IMG/VR virus record: IMGVR_UViG_3300025153_000010
Coordinates: 1-41,962 of that record
DNA length: 41,962 nt
Reading direction: 5' to 3' (one strand)
Source: a virus
The position numbers were made by a program, and so were the translations under genes. Below the pieces are notes generated by a model. That model was given only the letters and a program-made list of their open reading frames with translations. It searched no databases and was not told the DNA's origin. Each line of letters begins with the position of its first letter. Position 1 is the first letter of the stretch. Positions 18,426 to 36,587 of this stretch are shown piece by piece.

Positions 18426-19304
18426 TTATTCTGGCAAGTGAGGGTAAAGCGCTTCGGCAAACCAAATAGCGACCCTCTTATCTTTCACTACGGCCATAAA
18501 ACCCGACTTATGCCGAAAAATGAAACCCGGACAATGTGCTATGCTTTCCGGTACCACATCGATCGTTGTGTCGCGGGACTGGATTTGCCAACCGTTGGCG
18601 TGTGGCATTACGGCAAAAACGTGGTCGGTCTTATCCTTCCAGATTCCGGAATATTCTTCAAACACGGCCACGTTGTTTGGCAGGATCACGCGGCGGTGGT
18701 ATTCGGCTTCGAATTCGGCTTTGCGCTCGGAGTTGTAAACTTCGTTGCCAATGATGACCATGGCGAACTCAACTGCTTTGCGGAATTGGATAAATTGCTG
18801 ATCTGGATCAGTAACATCGCGGTTGAAACCACCGATAATACTGGAAACATTGCGAAAGCCGCTGGGAAGTGTTGCCCACACGCCGTATATATTGTTACGG
18901 TTGGTGTCCATTGCGTCGATAGCGGAAATGAATTTTTCGAAAAATGGCTGGGCGTCGGGTCGTGGACAAATCAAATCCTTAAAATGCTCATACACCAACC
19001 CAGCAGCCGACATAAGGTTCATATCCTGATGATGGTCGAAATTCAACATTGAAGGATCGTAAACGCCCCCAACATCCAAAACCAAGATTTGAGGATCTGC
19101 CAGACCGGCCGCGAGAATTTCGGGATTGCGGGTGCGGAATAACTCGAAGCCACGAAAGTGATTCTCGTTAACATTATAATAACCCGTGAATAAATCGAAC
19201 GGAAAACCGTGATATGCATCCATTGCAGTTTGCAGCATGGCCACTGCAAAAACGTCGTCGGCGTGAAAGGTGGTGTCGTGGGTAATAACTCTATTGAAGT
19301 TCAT
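18426..19304 (-). CDS. MYG1-family (UPF0160, DHH-like) metal-dependent hydrolase
   Basis: 292 aa. The N-terminus has the MYG1 signature THDTTFHADDVFAVAML (His9, His14, Asp16, Asp17), then DVGGVYDP at 77-84 and FDHHQ with Asp90, His91, His92. These are the metal-binding residues of the DHH superfamily as used by MYG1 proteins, for which exonuclease activity on RNA has been reported in eukaryotes. The length matches the one-domain family. The start overlaps the end of the cytosine methyltransferase-like gene by 14 nt. In a phage it could act on nucleic acid turnover or a signalling nucleotide; substrate unknown. Not a usual phage gene. Confidence 0.85.
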   Translation of the reverse strand: MNFNRVITHDTTFHADDVFAVAMLQTAMDAYHGFPFDLFTGYYNVNENHFRGFELFRTRNPEILAAGLADPQILVLDVGGVYDPSMLNFDHHQDMNLMSAAGLVYEHFKDLICPRPDAQPFFEKFISAIDAMDTNRNNIYGVWATLPSGFRNVSSIIGGFNRDVTDPDQQFIQFRKAVEFAMVIIGNEVYNSERKAEFEAEYHRRVILPNNVAVFEEYSGIWKDKTDHVFAVMPHANGWQIQSRDTTIDVVPESIAHCPGFIFRHKSGFMAVVKDKRVAIWFAEALYPHLPE

Positions 19305-24357: not shown

Positions 24358-24669
24358 TTAGAGGTTTAAAGAGGTTTTTACGAATTCGAAATGGGTGGTG
24401 AAGTCCTTTAATCGCGCCTTGTATTCCTTTTCGGACGACGCAACACAGAAATTGATCATGAACTCGACGTCGAAGAATTCGCCCAGGCCACATACATCGG
24501 TGCCAGTCGACCGAATTTTGAACTTTTCAGAGTCGACGTATTCGAGCCAAAAGGCTTCGCTTTCGGATTTTATCTTAATAAAAAACCTGTCATTGGCCGT
24601 ACGGACGTACACCGGATAGGTTATTTTGATCTTTGGAGGTACGGAAAGTCGTTTAATTTCGCTGATCAT
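24358..24669 (-). CDS. Small early protein next to iteron array
   Basis: 103 aa, beta-rich (KIKITYPVYVRTANDRFFIK) with two Cys. The first gene downstream of the GTAGGCA repeat region on the minus strand. Function unknown. Being next to the origin it could be an origin-associated factor, but nothing in the sequence shows this. Confidence 0.55.
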   Translation of the reverse strand: MISEIKRLSVPPKIKITYPVYVRTANDRFFIKIKSESEAFWLEYVDSEKFKIRSTGTDVCGLGEFFDVEFMINFCVASSEKEYKARLKDFTTHFEFVKTSLNL

Positions 24670-24706
24670 AACTTTGACATATTTACCAAGGGGTACCTAT
24701 TTTGAG

Positions 24707-24998
24707 TGCCTACCATGCCTACCGTGCCTACGCTTGAAAACTTTTGCTGATAATCAATCGATTACCAGTTTTGACAGTACCTACAACCGTAGGCAAATTC
24801 CGTTTAGCGTAGGCAAATGGCCGATTTTGTAGGCAAGTGCCATTTTGTAGGCATTTTTCGGGCACTTGCCTACGCTTGCCTACCATTTGCCTACCGTTGC
24901 CTACGCCTTGCTTCGCTCCCTTTACCACCTATTTATTTAATAATCAATTAATTAATATATATATGGTAAGGGCGTAGGCACGGTAGGCACGGTAGGCA
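24707..24998. other. Probable replication origin: 14 GTAGGCA iterons plus AT-rich element
   Basis: Seen: 14 exact copies of TGCCTAC/GTAGGCA arranged as three (24707-24731, 9-bp period, TGCCTAC), four (24789-24853, GTAGGCA, 18-20-bp period), four (24867-24904, TGCCTAC, 10-11-bp period) and three (24974-24998, GTAGGCA, 9-bp period). The outer triplets form a 27-bp inverted repeat with one mismatch. A perfect 13-bp inverted repeat (24829-24841 and 24861-24873) lies inside. An AT-rich stretch at 24926-24965 looks like a DNA unwinding element. This is the only gap above 300 nt without a gene and lies 16 nt behind the primase-helicase stop. An iteron-type origin is the best reading (inference). Confidence 0.6.
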
Positions 24999-25014
24999 AG
25001 GAAAATACGGGGCG

Positions 25015-28000
25015 CTAAAATGGAATGTCCCTTTGCTTGCCTGGGGCATCCTTAACTTGTTCTCTTTCAGAAACATTGCCTACGCTGGCTACCGTTGGTG
25101 TGTCCTGTTCCATTTTCTCATTTAAGCCCTCCAAGGAGAAACCGTCCAAAATCTCAGTGAGATACTCGTAATCGTAAGCAAGTGCCGATGTAGGAGAACC
25201 GCCGAATTTTATGTTTCGAATGCTGCCATAAAAGCCTTTGGCATGTTCCAAGTAATGTTTTAGCGACCCTGAGTCAAGCCCGTTCTTCCCGTACTGCTTT
25301 CTGTGTAATTCCAGGTACAATGGCTGAATCTTGCTGAGCCGCATGTATAGGACTTTTTTGGGACGGCCTTGATCCAGGATCTTCTCGGTGCTTTCGCCAT
25401 TCTCATACACCGTCAGCGATGGTACGGCTTTGATCAGAAACTCCTCATTGTCTTTAATGTGGCCCGTTCGGTACATGTATTCGACCATGTTCCAGAATGT
25501 ACTGGTCTCTTTGGATCCGGCTATGAGGGAATTCTGCTTACGAAGCATGTTTGAGGCCGTTTGCCGGATTTCCTCCTGCGTAAATGGGAAATCGATCAGA
25601 TCCTTTAAAACCTCGAACATTGAAAGCAGTACTGAGATATTTTTTACGAGACGGTCGTCAATGCCATGTTTGGAAAATGAGGATTTTAAAACATCGAACT
25701 GGGTGTTGTAGATATCGAAAAAGGTCTTTTCCACGATATCCCGGTGCACCGACAATTCTGCCGTAATGTGCCCAAAGTCCAGATTCTTGCCTCGCAAGTG
25801 AAAGGAGTCGAGCCGCTGGCGTTCTTCCTGGGAAAACTCAGTTTTGTCGTATTGTAGCAAAATGCACCTGGTGAAAAGTGCGATATCAGCTGTTGGCAAT
25901 TCCTGGCCACTCACAATACACCCAGATGAAACTGGGATAGACTTGTTTCGGTTATCCTTCGTCATGTCGGACTTGGTGTGGCCATTCCCATCGTAGGCGG
26001 TTTTGAGCGACTGCACCCGGCCCCAGTCAATACTATTGAGATACTCATCGAACCAAACAACTGCATTGCGGAACTCGGCGAAATGCTTGTAGAAACCTAC
26101 GCTGGTACCTGTGTTGAGCGCAAACGGCGGTCGAGCGTGGCCGAATAAATAGGACATAGACCATGCCATGGTGGACTTACCCGTTTGCGGCGGGCCAAAA
26201 AGGAATAAATGCGGAAAGCATCGGAAGCGATCAAACACAATATCCCTGAAAAGGCATGAAATGTAATACAGTAAACCGATGCGGCCATTATCGCCATGTA
26301 CGTCGCAAAACAGCTTGGCGTAGTCGGCAAAACTGATCGTTCCCTTGTTGTAGATGAATTTTTTGGCGTTCTGATACTCGTCGTCGTCGTTCATATAGAT
26401 CCTGGAAAGAGGTGGTATAAAATAGCGTTTGTCGCCGTGCTCTACGATGCCGTAACCGTCCTTATCCAGGGGTGTGAAAACGGGGCGGGTTACCTTTTCT
26501 AAATGCATTGGGGACTTTTGAGACTGAATGCCATTGGCAAAAGCATAAAATCCGTCCTTATGATATCCCAGGGTTTTCACTTCTTCGGCTTCCTTGGATT
26601 CATCGAAAAGCTTAGACTTGACTTTCATAAATTGCATGGGATTGCCCATGAAAATGAAGTTACCCTGAGACTCAACGTTTTTACGGAAGCCGTCCAGCTG
26701 GACAAACTCCGAGGGATCCAGGTCGACAACCTTCGACTTTTTCCAGCAGTTTTTGACTTCGTAGATCCGCTTGGGGTTGGACTTGGAAATGATCAGAAAC
26801 AGCGGGCGAATGGTAAAGTTGCTGCCAGGCTTAAACTTGTACATATACGATTTCTCGTCGTAGGTGGCGAACCAGTATTTGCCTTGCCACTCAACGAAAC
26901 CATATTTGCGAAACATCTTCCTGATTTCAGGAGTGTGCCAGGCTTCGAGAGATAATCCTACCTGCTCTATGTCGTCATCTTCTTCGTCGATGAAATCGTC
27001 GTCATCGTCAGATTCCGAATCTTCGGTCTTTTCCTTTTCCTCGGAAACAGGTTCTTTTGATTTGCTTTTGCCTTTTTTTCCCTTCTTAGCCTTTTTAGAG
27101 GCGTTTGGGGCTGGTTCTTCCTTTACTGGATCCGGCACCGGCGTTTCTGTCGATGGATGATCACTGGACACTACTTTTAACAAAGTCCTTAAATGTGCTT
27201 CAACTTCTTCTGGATCATGAAAAAATATAGTTTGTGGCTCGTTAACGATCTTCGGCGACACAATTCCAAGTAAAACAAGCTGATCCATGATTCGCCCAGC
27301 CCGATTGTATCCCAGTTTGAACAATCGTTGGATAAAGGAAGTACTACACTGCTGATCAGCAACAATAAGCATAGCAACATCAAAAAGTAAATCGTCGACT
27401 TCGTCCGGAAGTACCGGCACTTCTGCTGGTACGATATCGGGTTTAGGTTCGGTAACGTCGGGCACACCGTCGACTAACGGTGTTTCTGGCGATACTTCAG
27501 GTAAATTCTTCTTGTCCCAGGCAGCTTTAATCAGATCGTCAAGGTCTATTAGATTGTCGCCTCTTTGGTCGATGATGTGGTCGGCGATGTCATATCCATC
27601 GGTGCGGTCCGGAAATGGATCGACGACAGCGTGATTGATCTGATAACCTTCAAGCTTCCGAATGCTGCTGTTGGGTTTGCCTGGACGGCCAGCTATATCG
27701 GCATCACAAAGCCATACGACCCGGCGTCCAAATACGGCTGGTATTTTGGCATCGGTAAGGCCGGTATTGGCTGCACAAGCGAGCCAGTCGTACTGTGGAT
27801 AGAAAAAGGAAGCTACAACGGCTGTCTTTTCGGACTCCACAATGATAACCGTCTTTTTCTTGTCAGGATCTAGCAGGTGCTCACCGTAAAGGCACAACAT
27901 AAAACGTTTCAGTTCGTCGTCTGGCTGTTTGAGGCTGAATGCCAGAAAGTCCTTATTGCGATGACCATCCGTCTTGTAAAGGATGCTTTTCCCGTTCACG

Positions 28001-28410
28001 ATCCGGCCTTCCCGATCCTTGAAAACGAACATCGTTTTGTTGATTTCACCACCCATACCCCATTTTTGAAAATGAAGCATGGTAATACCAAGCCTATTGG
28101 TAAGGTAGGTGTGCAGGTTGGTATAAAGGCGGGCTTGGGCCTTGGTCAAGCGCTCCAATTGGGGGCCTTCAGGGAATACCTGGACGGGTTGTGGTGGCGG
28201 CGGGCCTGGCTCTTTGCCTTCGGTCTTTATTCCCTTTGGCGGTAAGTGGATCCCGCAAGTGTTTTGCCGATCGCAAATGCCGAAGTCGTCAAGGCGCTTG
28301 CCCTCTATATCTTCATAATAGCGAAACACGCCATTATGGTCACAATTGGGGCATGTGCCCTTTTTCTTCGGATGCTTTTCGAGCCTAAAAGGATACTCAT
28401 TGGACTGCAT
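25015..28410 (-). CDS. Primase-helicase with internal FtsK-gamma-like winged helix
   Basis: 1131 aa. Order of parts: zinc finger (Cys20, Cys23, Cys46, Cys52); TOPRIM primase domain with IVESEKTA (Glu192) and LCDAD (Asp236, Asp238); a winged-helix segment near residues 338-400 matching the FtsK gamma pattern (CSTSFIQRLFKLGYNRAGRI, then MDQLVLLGIVSP); an acidic/Lys-rich linker; an ATPase of DUF927/SF3-like type with Walker A GPPQTGKST (Lys745) and Walker B WFDEY (Asp788, Glu789). It would unwind and prime at the phage origin, which lies just behind its stop. The start is nested in the preceding SANT-like gene. One GTAGGCA-type copy (25077-25083) lies inside its 3' end. Confidence 0.88.
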   Translation of the reverse strand: MQSNEYPFRLEKHPKKKGTCPNCDHNGVFRYYEDIEGKRLDDFGICDRQNTCGIHLPPKGIKTEGKEPGPPPPQPVQVFPEGPQLERLTKAQARLYTNLHTYLTNRLGITMLHFQKWGMGGEINKTMFVFKDREGRIVNGKSILYKTDGHRNKDFLAFSLKQPDDELKRFMLCLYGEHLLDPDKKKTVIIVESEKTAVVASFFYPQYDWLACAANTGLTDAKIPAVFGRRVVWLCDADIAGRPGKPNSSIRKLEGYQINHAVVDPFPDRTDGYDIADHIIDQRGDNLIDLDDLIKAAWDKKNLPEVSPETPLVDGVPDVTEPKPDIVPAEVPVLPDEVDDLLFDVAMLIVADQQCSTSFIQRLFKLGYNRAGRIMDQLVLLGIVSPKIVNEPQTIFFHDPEEVEAHLRTLLKVVSSDHPSTETPVPDPVKEEPAPNASKKAKKGKKGKSKSKEPVSEEKEKTEDSESDDDDDFIDEEDDDIEQVGLSLEAWHTPEIRKMFRKYGFVEWQGKYWFATYDEKSYMYKFKPGSNFTIRPLFLIISKSNPKRIYEVKNCWKKSKVVDLDPSEFVQLDGFRKNVESQGNFIFMGNPMQFMKVKSKLFDESKEAEEVKTLGYHKDGFYAFANGIQSQKSPMHLEKVTRPVFTPLDKDGYGIVEHGDKRYFIPPLSRIYMNDDDEYQNAKKFIYNKGTISFADYAKLFCDVHGDNGRIGLLYYISCLFRDIVFDRFRCFPHLFLFGPPQTGKSTMAWSMSYLFGHARPPFALNTGTSVGFYKHFAEFRNAVVWFDEYLNSIDWGRVQSLKTAYDGNGHTKSDMTKDNRNKSIPVSSGCIVSGQELPTADIALFTRCILLQYDKTEFSQEERQRLDSFHLRGKNLDFGHITAELSVHRDIVEKTFFDIYNTQFDVLKSSFSKHGIDDRLVKNISVLLSMFEVLKDLIDFPFTQEEIRQTASNMLRKQNSLIAGSKETSTFWNMVEYMYRTGHIKDNEEFLIKAVPSLTVYENGESTEKILDQGRPKKVLYMRLSKIQPLYLELHRKQYGKNGLDSGSLKHYLEHAKGFYGSIRNIKFGGSPTSALAYDYEYLTEILDGFSLEGLNEKMEQDTPTVASVGNVSEREQVKDAPGKQRDIPF

Positions 28411-35531: not shown

Positions 35532-35765
35532 TCACTTCTTTTTTACTACCGGTGCTTCCGCTTCGGGTAGCACTGCTGGCTCGGCTTCGGCTACTGGTGA
35601 CGCTGGTGCTGCTTCAACTTGTGAAACTCCGGCGATGCCTGCTTTGAAAAGCTTTTCGGCGACCAGGTCGCCGTCTACTTCTGCTAAATGGATGCGGTTG
35701 CCTCCAACGAGGTAATATTGATTGGCAGCTACTTCCTTATCTATTTTATACTTGGTTAATGGCAT
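35532..35765 (-). CDS. Small late protein with Ala/Pro/Glu tail
   Basis: 77 aa. An N-terminal beta-like segment (PLTKYKIDKEVAANQYYLV) and an Ala/Pro/Glu-rich tail (EAAPASPVAEAEPAVLPEAE) ending VVKKK. It shares the KKK-stop ending with the downstream gene. Probably a capsid decoration or tail-related protein by position. It is preceded by the iteron-like repeats at 35821-35935. Confidence 0.6.
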   Translation of the reverse strand: MPLTKYKIDKEVAANQYYLVGGNRIHLAEVDGDLVAEKLFKAGIAGVSQVEAAPASPVAEAEPAVLPEAEAPVVKKK

Positions 35766-35820: not shown

Positions 35821-35935
35821 CTTGCCTACCGTGCCTACGCTACTAATTTGTTGTTGACCGTCAATGATTTAAACTAATTGGCCCGGCTGGAAACCGTAGG
35901 CAACTGGTAGAAATCGGTCGCATAGCGTAGGCAAG
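35821..35935. repeat. Second GTAGGCA locus
   Basis: Two TGCCTAC copies at 35823-35829 and 35832-35838 (9-bp period) and two GTAGGCA copies at 35896-35902 and 35927-35933, in inverted arrangement around an AT-rich centre. The left pair is identical to the last two units of the 24707 triplet, and the distance to the CCGTAGGCAA box (53 nt here, 53-55 nt there) is preserved. It lies in the gap between the tail tube-like gene and a small late gene. Confidence 0.6.
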
Positions 35936-35939
35936 TAGT

Positions 35940-36587
35940 TTAGATGACTACCGGCAAGGCGTCGATTGGAATAACAATCGTCGTGTCGAGTGGGGCGGGT
36001 GGGGTCATAAAGCCGTCGTTTTTGGCGGTGAAGGTGATCTTTTGCGCGTCGGTTCCTTTGGCTCCTGAATCACCGGTCATTTCGAGTTCAAGCGGGTTGT
36101 CGACTGATCCTACCAGGTACATTTTGTTGTTGTTGCCCTTGGCGATGATCAGTAAAGGGCGGTTCAATAAACGTGTGGCCAGCTTCACGCTGTCTTCATC
36201 GATACCATTGACCTCGAAACTGATATTCTGCTCGAATGCCTGGCTGCCGATCTTCCCTTTGGATGAGAAACCCCACTTGGTGGTGTCGTAGGCTGCCTGG
36301 ATTTCGATAAACTTCTTTGTAGTGGTCAGCGGGATCGTTGTTCCAGTGATTTTGCCGCTTGTTGCGAGCATGTCATAGGTTGGAAACTCAACGTCGTCGA
36401 AGTCTTCCACGACTGCGATGTACAAACGCTTATTACCTCCCGGTTTCGGTCCGCACTTACGGCGAAGACCTAATAATGGAAGACAGCTGGCTGTTATCGC
36501 GGCCGCTGGATCATTTGTGGTGGTGATTCCTATTGCGACCAGGCTCACAAGGAGGGTAACCGATAAAAGTTTGAGAATGCTATTCAT
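35940..36587 (-). CDS. Major tail tube-like protein with hydrophobic N-terminus
   Basis: 215 aa. The body after about residue 50 is a beta-rich domain (YIAVVEDFDDVEFPTYDML, then FIEIQAAYDTTKWGFSSKG, FEQNISFEVNGIDEDSVKLA) resembling tail tube-type proteins. Position behind capsid genes fits. The first 30 residues (MNSILKLLSVTLLVSLVAIG) look like a signal peptide or membrane helix, which is odd for a tube protein. An ATG inside the hydrophobic region is absent, so a non-ATG start nearer CGPKPGGNKR may be the real one. Confidence 0.6.
   Translation of the reverse strand: MNSILKLLSVTLLVSLVAIGITTTNDPAAAITASCLPLLGLRRKCGPKPGGNKRLYIAVVEDFDDVEFPTYDMLATSGKITGTTIPLTTTKKFIEIQAAYDTTKWGFSSKGKIGSQAFEQNISFEVNGIDEDSVKLATRLLNRPLLIIAKGNNNKMYLVGSVDNPLELEMTGDSGAKGTDAQKITFTAKNDGFMTPPAPLDTTIVIPIDALPVVI

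Follow-up and report, generated by a model that had tools for sequence, protein, structure and literature searches.

The window analysed here is a 41,962-nt stretch of viral DNA (IMG/VR record IMGVR_UViG_3300025153_000010). At positions 24707-24998 it carries 14 exact copies of the heptamer GTAGGCA, arranged in four blocks of 3(-), 4(+), 4(-) and 3(+) copies (Table 1). The array occupies a gap between an ORF of 103 aa (24358-24669, minus strand) and a gene coding for a large primase-helicase. Since this gene is encoded on the minus strand and the array lies on its lower-coordinate side, the array is located downstream (3') of it. The word occurs 20 times in the whole window, compared with 2.8 +/- 1.7 in shuffled sequences, and none of 100 shuffles reached this count. 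The IHF consensus is matched at two sites of the array, one in each large gap. The first gap, taken whole, has 32% GC, and its very AT-rich part is limited to 40 bp. The folding energy of the region as single-stranded DNA corresponds to z = -10.4. No RNA families, terminators or tRNAs were found there.

Several details of this anatomy had been claimed by an initial annotation, made without database searches. The number of copies, their 3+4+4+3 grouping and alternating orientation held exactly, as did the position just behind the primase-helicase gene, the perfect 13-bp inner inverted repeat (24829-24841 and 24861-24873) and the 40-bp AT-rich stretch. The outer inverted repeat, described as near-perfect and 27 bp long, was confirmed; its arms (24698-24733 and 24972-25007) measure 36 nt and are 89% complementary. 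The gap was also said to be the only non-coding one above 300 nt; our check did not cover the window ends. The statement that the word is not a DnaA box is correct. No DnaA boxes (TTWTNCACA) are present in the array, and their count in the whole window is at chance level; a DnaA-dependent origin, marked by a cluster of such boxes, was rejected for this array. Cumulative GC skew, proposed as a check, was flat and uninformative, with no minimum at 24.9 kb. A fifteenth copy inside the primase-helicase gene and a second cluster had been overlooked.

Table 1. Features of the GTAGGCA array, the adjacent primase-helicase gene and the second cluster (window coordinates; L009/L037, Dyadobacter beijingensis prophage)
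Feature	Position	Strand	Basis or remark
Iteron block 1 (distal outer), three GTAGGCA, 9-bp period	24707..24731	-	orientation and period common to L009/L037
ATAATCAATCGATTA, IHF-consensus site, distal gap	24750..24764	+	consensus match; enrichment in arrays of relatives
Iteron block 2, four GTAGGCA, 18-20-bp spacing	24789..24853	+	
Perfect 13-bp inner inverted repeat linking blocks 2 and 3	24829..24873	none	
Iteron block 3, four GTAGGCA, 10-11-bp spacing	24867..24904	-	
AT-rich stretch (12.5% GC), probable DNA unwinding element, with IHF-consensus site 24942-24954	24926..24965	none	also low GC of matching gap in relatives
Iteron block 4 (gene-proximal outer), three GTAGGCA, 9-bp period	24974..24998	+	
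Primase-helicase gene, 1131 aa, proposed initiator	25015..28410	-	
SSB-tip-like C-terminus RDIPF	25018..25032	-	
AAA+ helicase half, aa 465-1131, Walker A aa 739, Walker B aa 783	25018..27018	-	fold like SaPIbov1 Rep and Cch
Fifteenth GTAGGCA, within 3' end of primase-helicase gene	25077..25083	-	present also in L009
C-terminal domain, helix-helix-helix-wing order, aa about 967-1088, proposed word reader	25147..25512	-	model and co-variation
FtsK gamma domain insertion, aa 337-396	27223..27402	-	Pfam E 3e-18; absent from L009
DUF6371 (primase half), aa 114-236	27703..28071	-	Pfam; other primase types in its place in relatives
Zn ribbon (PF21957), aa 6-62	28225..28395	-	Pfam
Second, smaller cluster, 2(-) then 2(+) GTAGGCA, 57-bp gap (42% GC) between	35823..35933	none	

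The second cluster lies 11 kb away from the main array and is intergenic, with ORFs 35532-35765 and 35940-36587 on either side. Besides these two arrays and the gene-internal copy, GTAGGCA occurs only once more in the remaining 41.2 kb. The second cluster might be a crr-like or regulatory second site. No such cluster was found in the contig of the sister prophage described below, and no second array was seen in the examined stretches of other relatives, L121 excepted. Elsewhere in the window (18426-19304), a MYG1/UPF0160-type exonuclease-like gene was observed (Pfam E 1e-25), here in a phage genome.

The helicase half of the neighbouring protein gave only weak P-loop matches in a sequence profile search against PDB. 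It was also modelled with AlphaFold2 (aa 465-1131, mean pLDDT 88). In a Foldseek search the best matches were SaPIbov1 Rep (8tch, E 2e-14) and SCCmec Cch (5dgk, E 1e-13); these two entries make up the top four hits, with E values from 2e-14 to 2e-13 and TM scores (target) of 0.61-0.64, and are followed by poxvirus D5/E5 and SaPI5 PriRep1. The C-terminal domain is predicted to consist of a helix, strands, two further helices and a two-stranded wing. Because a fold search with this domain alone matched no solved structure, the designation "winged helix" rests on the predicted order of elements. Neither Rep_3 nor RepA_N was matched by Pfam, and the initiator type of iteron plasmids that bears these domains was rejected. 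Helicases of most relatives end with DIPF, DLPF or EPPF after an acidic linker, resembling the SSB C-terminal tip; such ends could possibly serve as a lure for host SSB-binding proteins. Some relatives (L087-L089) possess an extra OB/SSB-like domain.

The closest relative is a prophage of Dyadobacter beijingensis DSM 21582 (IMG/VR 2522125168), whose primase-helicase is 71% identical to that of the window. Its gene is followed by the same kind of array: after the gene-internal copy come 3(-), an AT-rich gap, 3(+), 4(-) and 3(+) copies, with diverged spacers. The tandem pair GTAGGCAnnGTAGGCA is found in the 7.4-Mb D. beijingensis genome in the prophage array only. As the same array is present in this prophage, the window phage probably infects a Dyadobacter-like host; this is an inference from the relative.

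Many more distant primase-helicases were revealed by a protein search of 222 genomes of this family. When short words were counted blindly, most of the helicase genes examined proved to precede a cluster, built of differing words (GTTGGTA, CGTAGGA, TGTAGTA, TGTAGAA and others). Two helicase-alignment scans of IMG/VR supplied 97 further loci; 89 loci had enough sequence to be counted. In the 700 bp that surround the helicase stop codon, 64% of these 89 viral loci have at least six copies of one heptamer. The same holds for 1.1% of 1001 tiles of 700 bp taken elsewhere in these loci. The array follows the helicase gene across the 89 loci despite many different neighbours. About a third of relatives lack a cluster right at the helicase end; some of them have one 1-4 kb away, and in others none was found. 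Among named phages, eight GTTGAGA lie directly behind the gene annotated as "DNA primase" in Flavobacterium phage laban6-1 (NC_048834), an array likewise follows the helicase gene of Flavobacterium phage 1H (NC_031911), and nine TTGTAGG are present in Porphyromonas phage017a, at a distance of about 2 kb behind the gene. In Cellulophaga phage Ingeline_1 and Microcystis phage Mea-Yong924-1, the surroundings of the gene showed no array.

The words change, but the layout is kept. The 46 non-redundant loci use 19 words, all beginning with GT and mostly with GTAG or GTTG. The words were GT-anchored for comparison, so the shared GT is partly due to construction; blind heptamer counts give the same words. 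In gene orientation, the commonest arrangement is a unit of inverted block, gap and direct block that occurs twice in succession (-+-+). A shorter form with a single such unit is common as well; the group with TGTAGCA departs from the layout. The gap between inverted and direct block spans 40-80 bp and is usually very AT-rich, the first gap having usually 9-28% GC. Neighbouring copies of the same orientation are spaced by 8-11 bp (186 cases), 18-21 bp (34) or 28-33 bp (12), with hardly any values between. This phasing of about 10 bp places the sites on the same face of the helix. The IHF consensus WATCAANNNNTTR is present in 22 of 47 arrays; among control tiles its frequency is 3.4%, and among the AT-rich ones 5.2%. 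No earlier description of these origins was found in the literature searched, although most subscription papers were outside its reach.

The word itself was tried as a family marker and rejected: an exact scan for three tandem GTAGGCA copies returned mostly unrelated phages and some coding repeats. The relatives are traceable via the helicase and not via the word. GTAGGCA, often as tGTAGGCAat in three copies, was observed in phages with unrelated helicases (L010, L012, L014-L017, L020, L022-L024, L026, L029-L031, L033-L035). In L011 (9575-9831) a GTAGGCA array lies right behind a VapE-type helicase, and in other such phages the word is located 2-3 kb behind DUF5906 helicases and beside terminase genes. 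Arrays of ACGTTGGAA (L077:10078-10182 and L078:3585-3747) lie upstream of a gene for Zn ribbon and DUF6371 that stands alone, with no helicase. Nine GGTAATA form a second, different array about 3 kb past the putative GTTGGTA origin array in L094 (about 8908) and L073 (about 4789). In the locus L086:8691-10714 (genome G208), the helicase gene is degenerate and contains stops, and what is left of a GGTTGAC array flanks it; the locus appears from sequence alone to be a decayed prophage replicon.

In the window primase-helicase, the linker that connects the primase half to the helicase half carries an FtsK gamma domain. This insertion was observed in two separate phage lineages, represented by the window and L082, and is confined to them among the loci compared. 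FtsK_gamma is the sole FtsK match of the protein; the FtsK motor domain was not matched by Pfam. Dyadobacter FtsK has the identical recognition helix, KLGYNRAGRIMDQL, so the gamma domain probably derives from a host gene and would be expected to read host KOPS; both inferences rest on the helix identity. Relatives without gamma keep their respective words: the D. beijingensis prophage has no gamma in the protein or the contig, yet it bears the same array as the window, and TGTAGTA is used by both L082 (with gamma) and L079 (without). In 800 kb of a Dyadobacter-like genome, GTAGGCA shows a weak strand bias (43:27), and the most strand-biased heptamer there is GGAAGGG (71:27).

The primase half is swapped freely among relatives. 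It may be missing or be of DUF6371, BT4734/PriCT_2 or DnaG type, and arrays occur with all of these. TGTAGTA accompanies both BT4734-type and DnaG-type halves, which rules out the N-terminal primase as the reader of the word. As the same words are used with and without gamma and with two primase types, neither gamma nor the primase half is the reader. After correction for the helicase core, distance between words correlates with distance between C-terminal domains (partial Mantel r=0.32, p=0.0005, 47 non-redundant loci); the reverse control, word against core, gives -0.15 (p 0.99, same loci). In a sliding window along the helicase, the word signal peaks at the C-terminus. The co-variation is modest and was measured among related sequences. 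It is thus likely that the word is read by the C-terminal, probably winged-helix domain of the helicase, an inference from co-variation and the structural model, without binding data. In phage P4, the winged helix of the alpha protein binds origin repeats (PMC4234260), and the correlation between word and C-terminal domain points the same way.

The systems most similar to this one are the replicons of staphylococcal islands and P4. SaPI initiators have helicase activity and primases (PMC7145576). In the SaPI origin, which is located near rep and read by Rep, an AT-rich region is flanked by sets of iterons. Fold and origin layout agree here: the common helicase fold with SaPIbov1 Rep and SCCmec Cch extends over nearly the whole 667 aa, and iteron sets flank an AT-rich region near the gene in the window and its relatives. 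The helicase half is similar to the initiator helicases of the islands, which load themselves; for the window protein, self-loading and unwinding are inferred by analogy. Identity in the fold alignment is only 11-14%. Unlike in SaPI Rep and Cch, the primase is fused into one protein and comes in several exchangeable types, the carriers are tailed phages of Bacteroidota and not Gram-positive islands, and the array has a fixed, phased four-block layout with IHF-type sites and GT-type words. P4 alpha is likewise a single protein with Toprim-type primase, helicase and a C-terminal DNA-binding domain acting on repeats, and the window protein shares the primase-helicase fusion (DUF6371, Zn ribbon and AAA+). 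Contrary to P4 alpha, the window helicase model is closest in PDB to SaPI Rep and Cch. The P4 iteron word differs from GTAGGCA. The second P4 site, crr, invites comparison with the second cluster at 35823-35933, a counterpart of which was not found in the sister prophage contig. In plasmid pRN1, the origin lies directly downstream of the gene for primase-helicase ORF904, which has a C-terminal winged helix (PMC4234260). This position resembles that of the window array, but the pRN1 origin is a large stem-loop without iterons. We consider it likely that the present system belongs to the SaPI-Rep/P4-alpha type of initiator-origin pair, as a branch not linked to it before, with origin activity and binding inferred.

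We propose that 24707-24998 is very likely the replication origin of the phage (probability about 0.84) and that GTAGGCA is an iteron bound by the phage's own primase-helicase. The array, its conservation behind the gene, the layout kept with changing words, the link between word and C-terminal domain and the fold match are shown by computation. The iteron-origin reading of the initial annotation is thereby supported, with origin activity still inferred. Its suggested search for GTAGGCA clusters near homologous primases was strongly positive, but the relatives bear their own words. Its proposed binder, the primase-helicase, is narrowed to the C-terminal domain of the helicase half. In the proposed mechanism, the protein encoded directly upstream would bind GTAGGCA through this domain, and spacing by about one or two helical turns would put several subunits on one DNA face. 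Blocks of opposite orientation flanking the AT-rich element would load helicases facing each other, while a host IHF/HU-type protein may bend the gaps. The AT-rich element would then melt and the attached primase half would lay the first primers. Binding, melting, helicase loading and origin firing are all inferred from anatomy, conservation and fold homology. The second cluster and the role of the IHF sites, both known from sequence alone, are left unexplained by the origin reading.

Other explanations of the array fare worse. It could be an operator or a partition or packaging site of another phage protein (a repressor, ParB-like protein or small terminase subunit), its proximity to the helicase being incidental. 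Iteron-like arrays do play such roles elsewhere, and an array of three GTAGGCA adjoins the small terminase gene in phages of other groups. However, the array tracks the helicase across 89 loci with many different neighbours, the C-terminal domain of the helicase and the word vary together, and the S24-type repressor (30487) and integrase (32009) genes are 5-7 kb away; we regard this possibility as very improbable. Arm-type repeats of an attP site are likewise short, clustered and accompanied by IHF sites, and a tyrosine recombinase is encoded by the phage. Nevertheless, the integrase is 7 kb distant, relatives of every type have their arrays behind the helicase, the word varies with the helicase, and IHF sites are found at origins too, which all but excludes attP. 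A dispersed host repeat, named by the initial annotation as the refuting case, or a chance cluster has no supporting evidence and is refuted by the shuffles, by the confinement of the D. beijingensis pair to the prophage and by the architecture kept in relatives.

The gamma domain might instead be the reader. GTAGGCA would then be a word of the host translocase, similar to KOPS, that serves as an origin or for loading. The domain is genuine, with a recognition helix as in Dyadobacter FtsK, and GTAGGCA loosely resembles KOPS. Contrary to the FtsK/KOPS system, the protein has no FtsK motor match, and the word is not host-KOPS-like, its strand counts being far from KOPS behaviour. It is also independent of gamma, as seen in the D. 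beijingensis relative and in the pair L082 and L079. This explanation is therefore very unlikely, and the C-terminal domain remains the preferred reader. We assign no function to gamma in the initiator, which is the chief open novelty. A bolder reading, which we find doubtful, is that the captured gamma works and lets the initiator recognise host chromosome-orienting words or touch XerD. If this were true, replication of the phage or prophage would be coupled to the host segregation machinery, and the initiator would have two sequence readers, a private one (the C-terminal domain) and a stolen one (gamma).

Our results provide a testable origin and reader for a large group of Bacteroidota phages, cultured Flavobacterium phages included, whose helicase half has no Pfam family. 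The fixed layout with changing words presents a natural experiment, in which initiator and origin co-evolve while the attached primase is swapped. Each related phage seems likely to have a private start signal, as far as can be inferred from the arrays, and such private words would predict which related phages share or exclude one another's origins.
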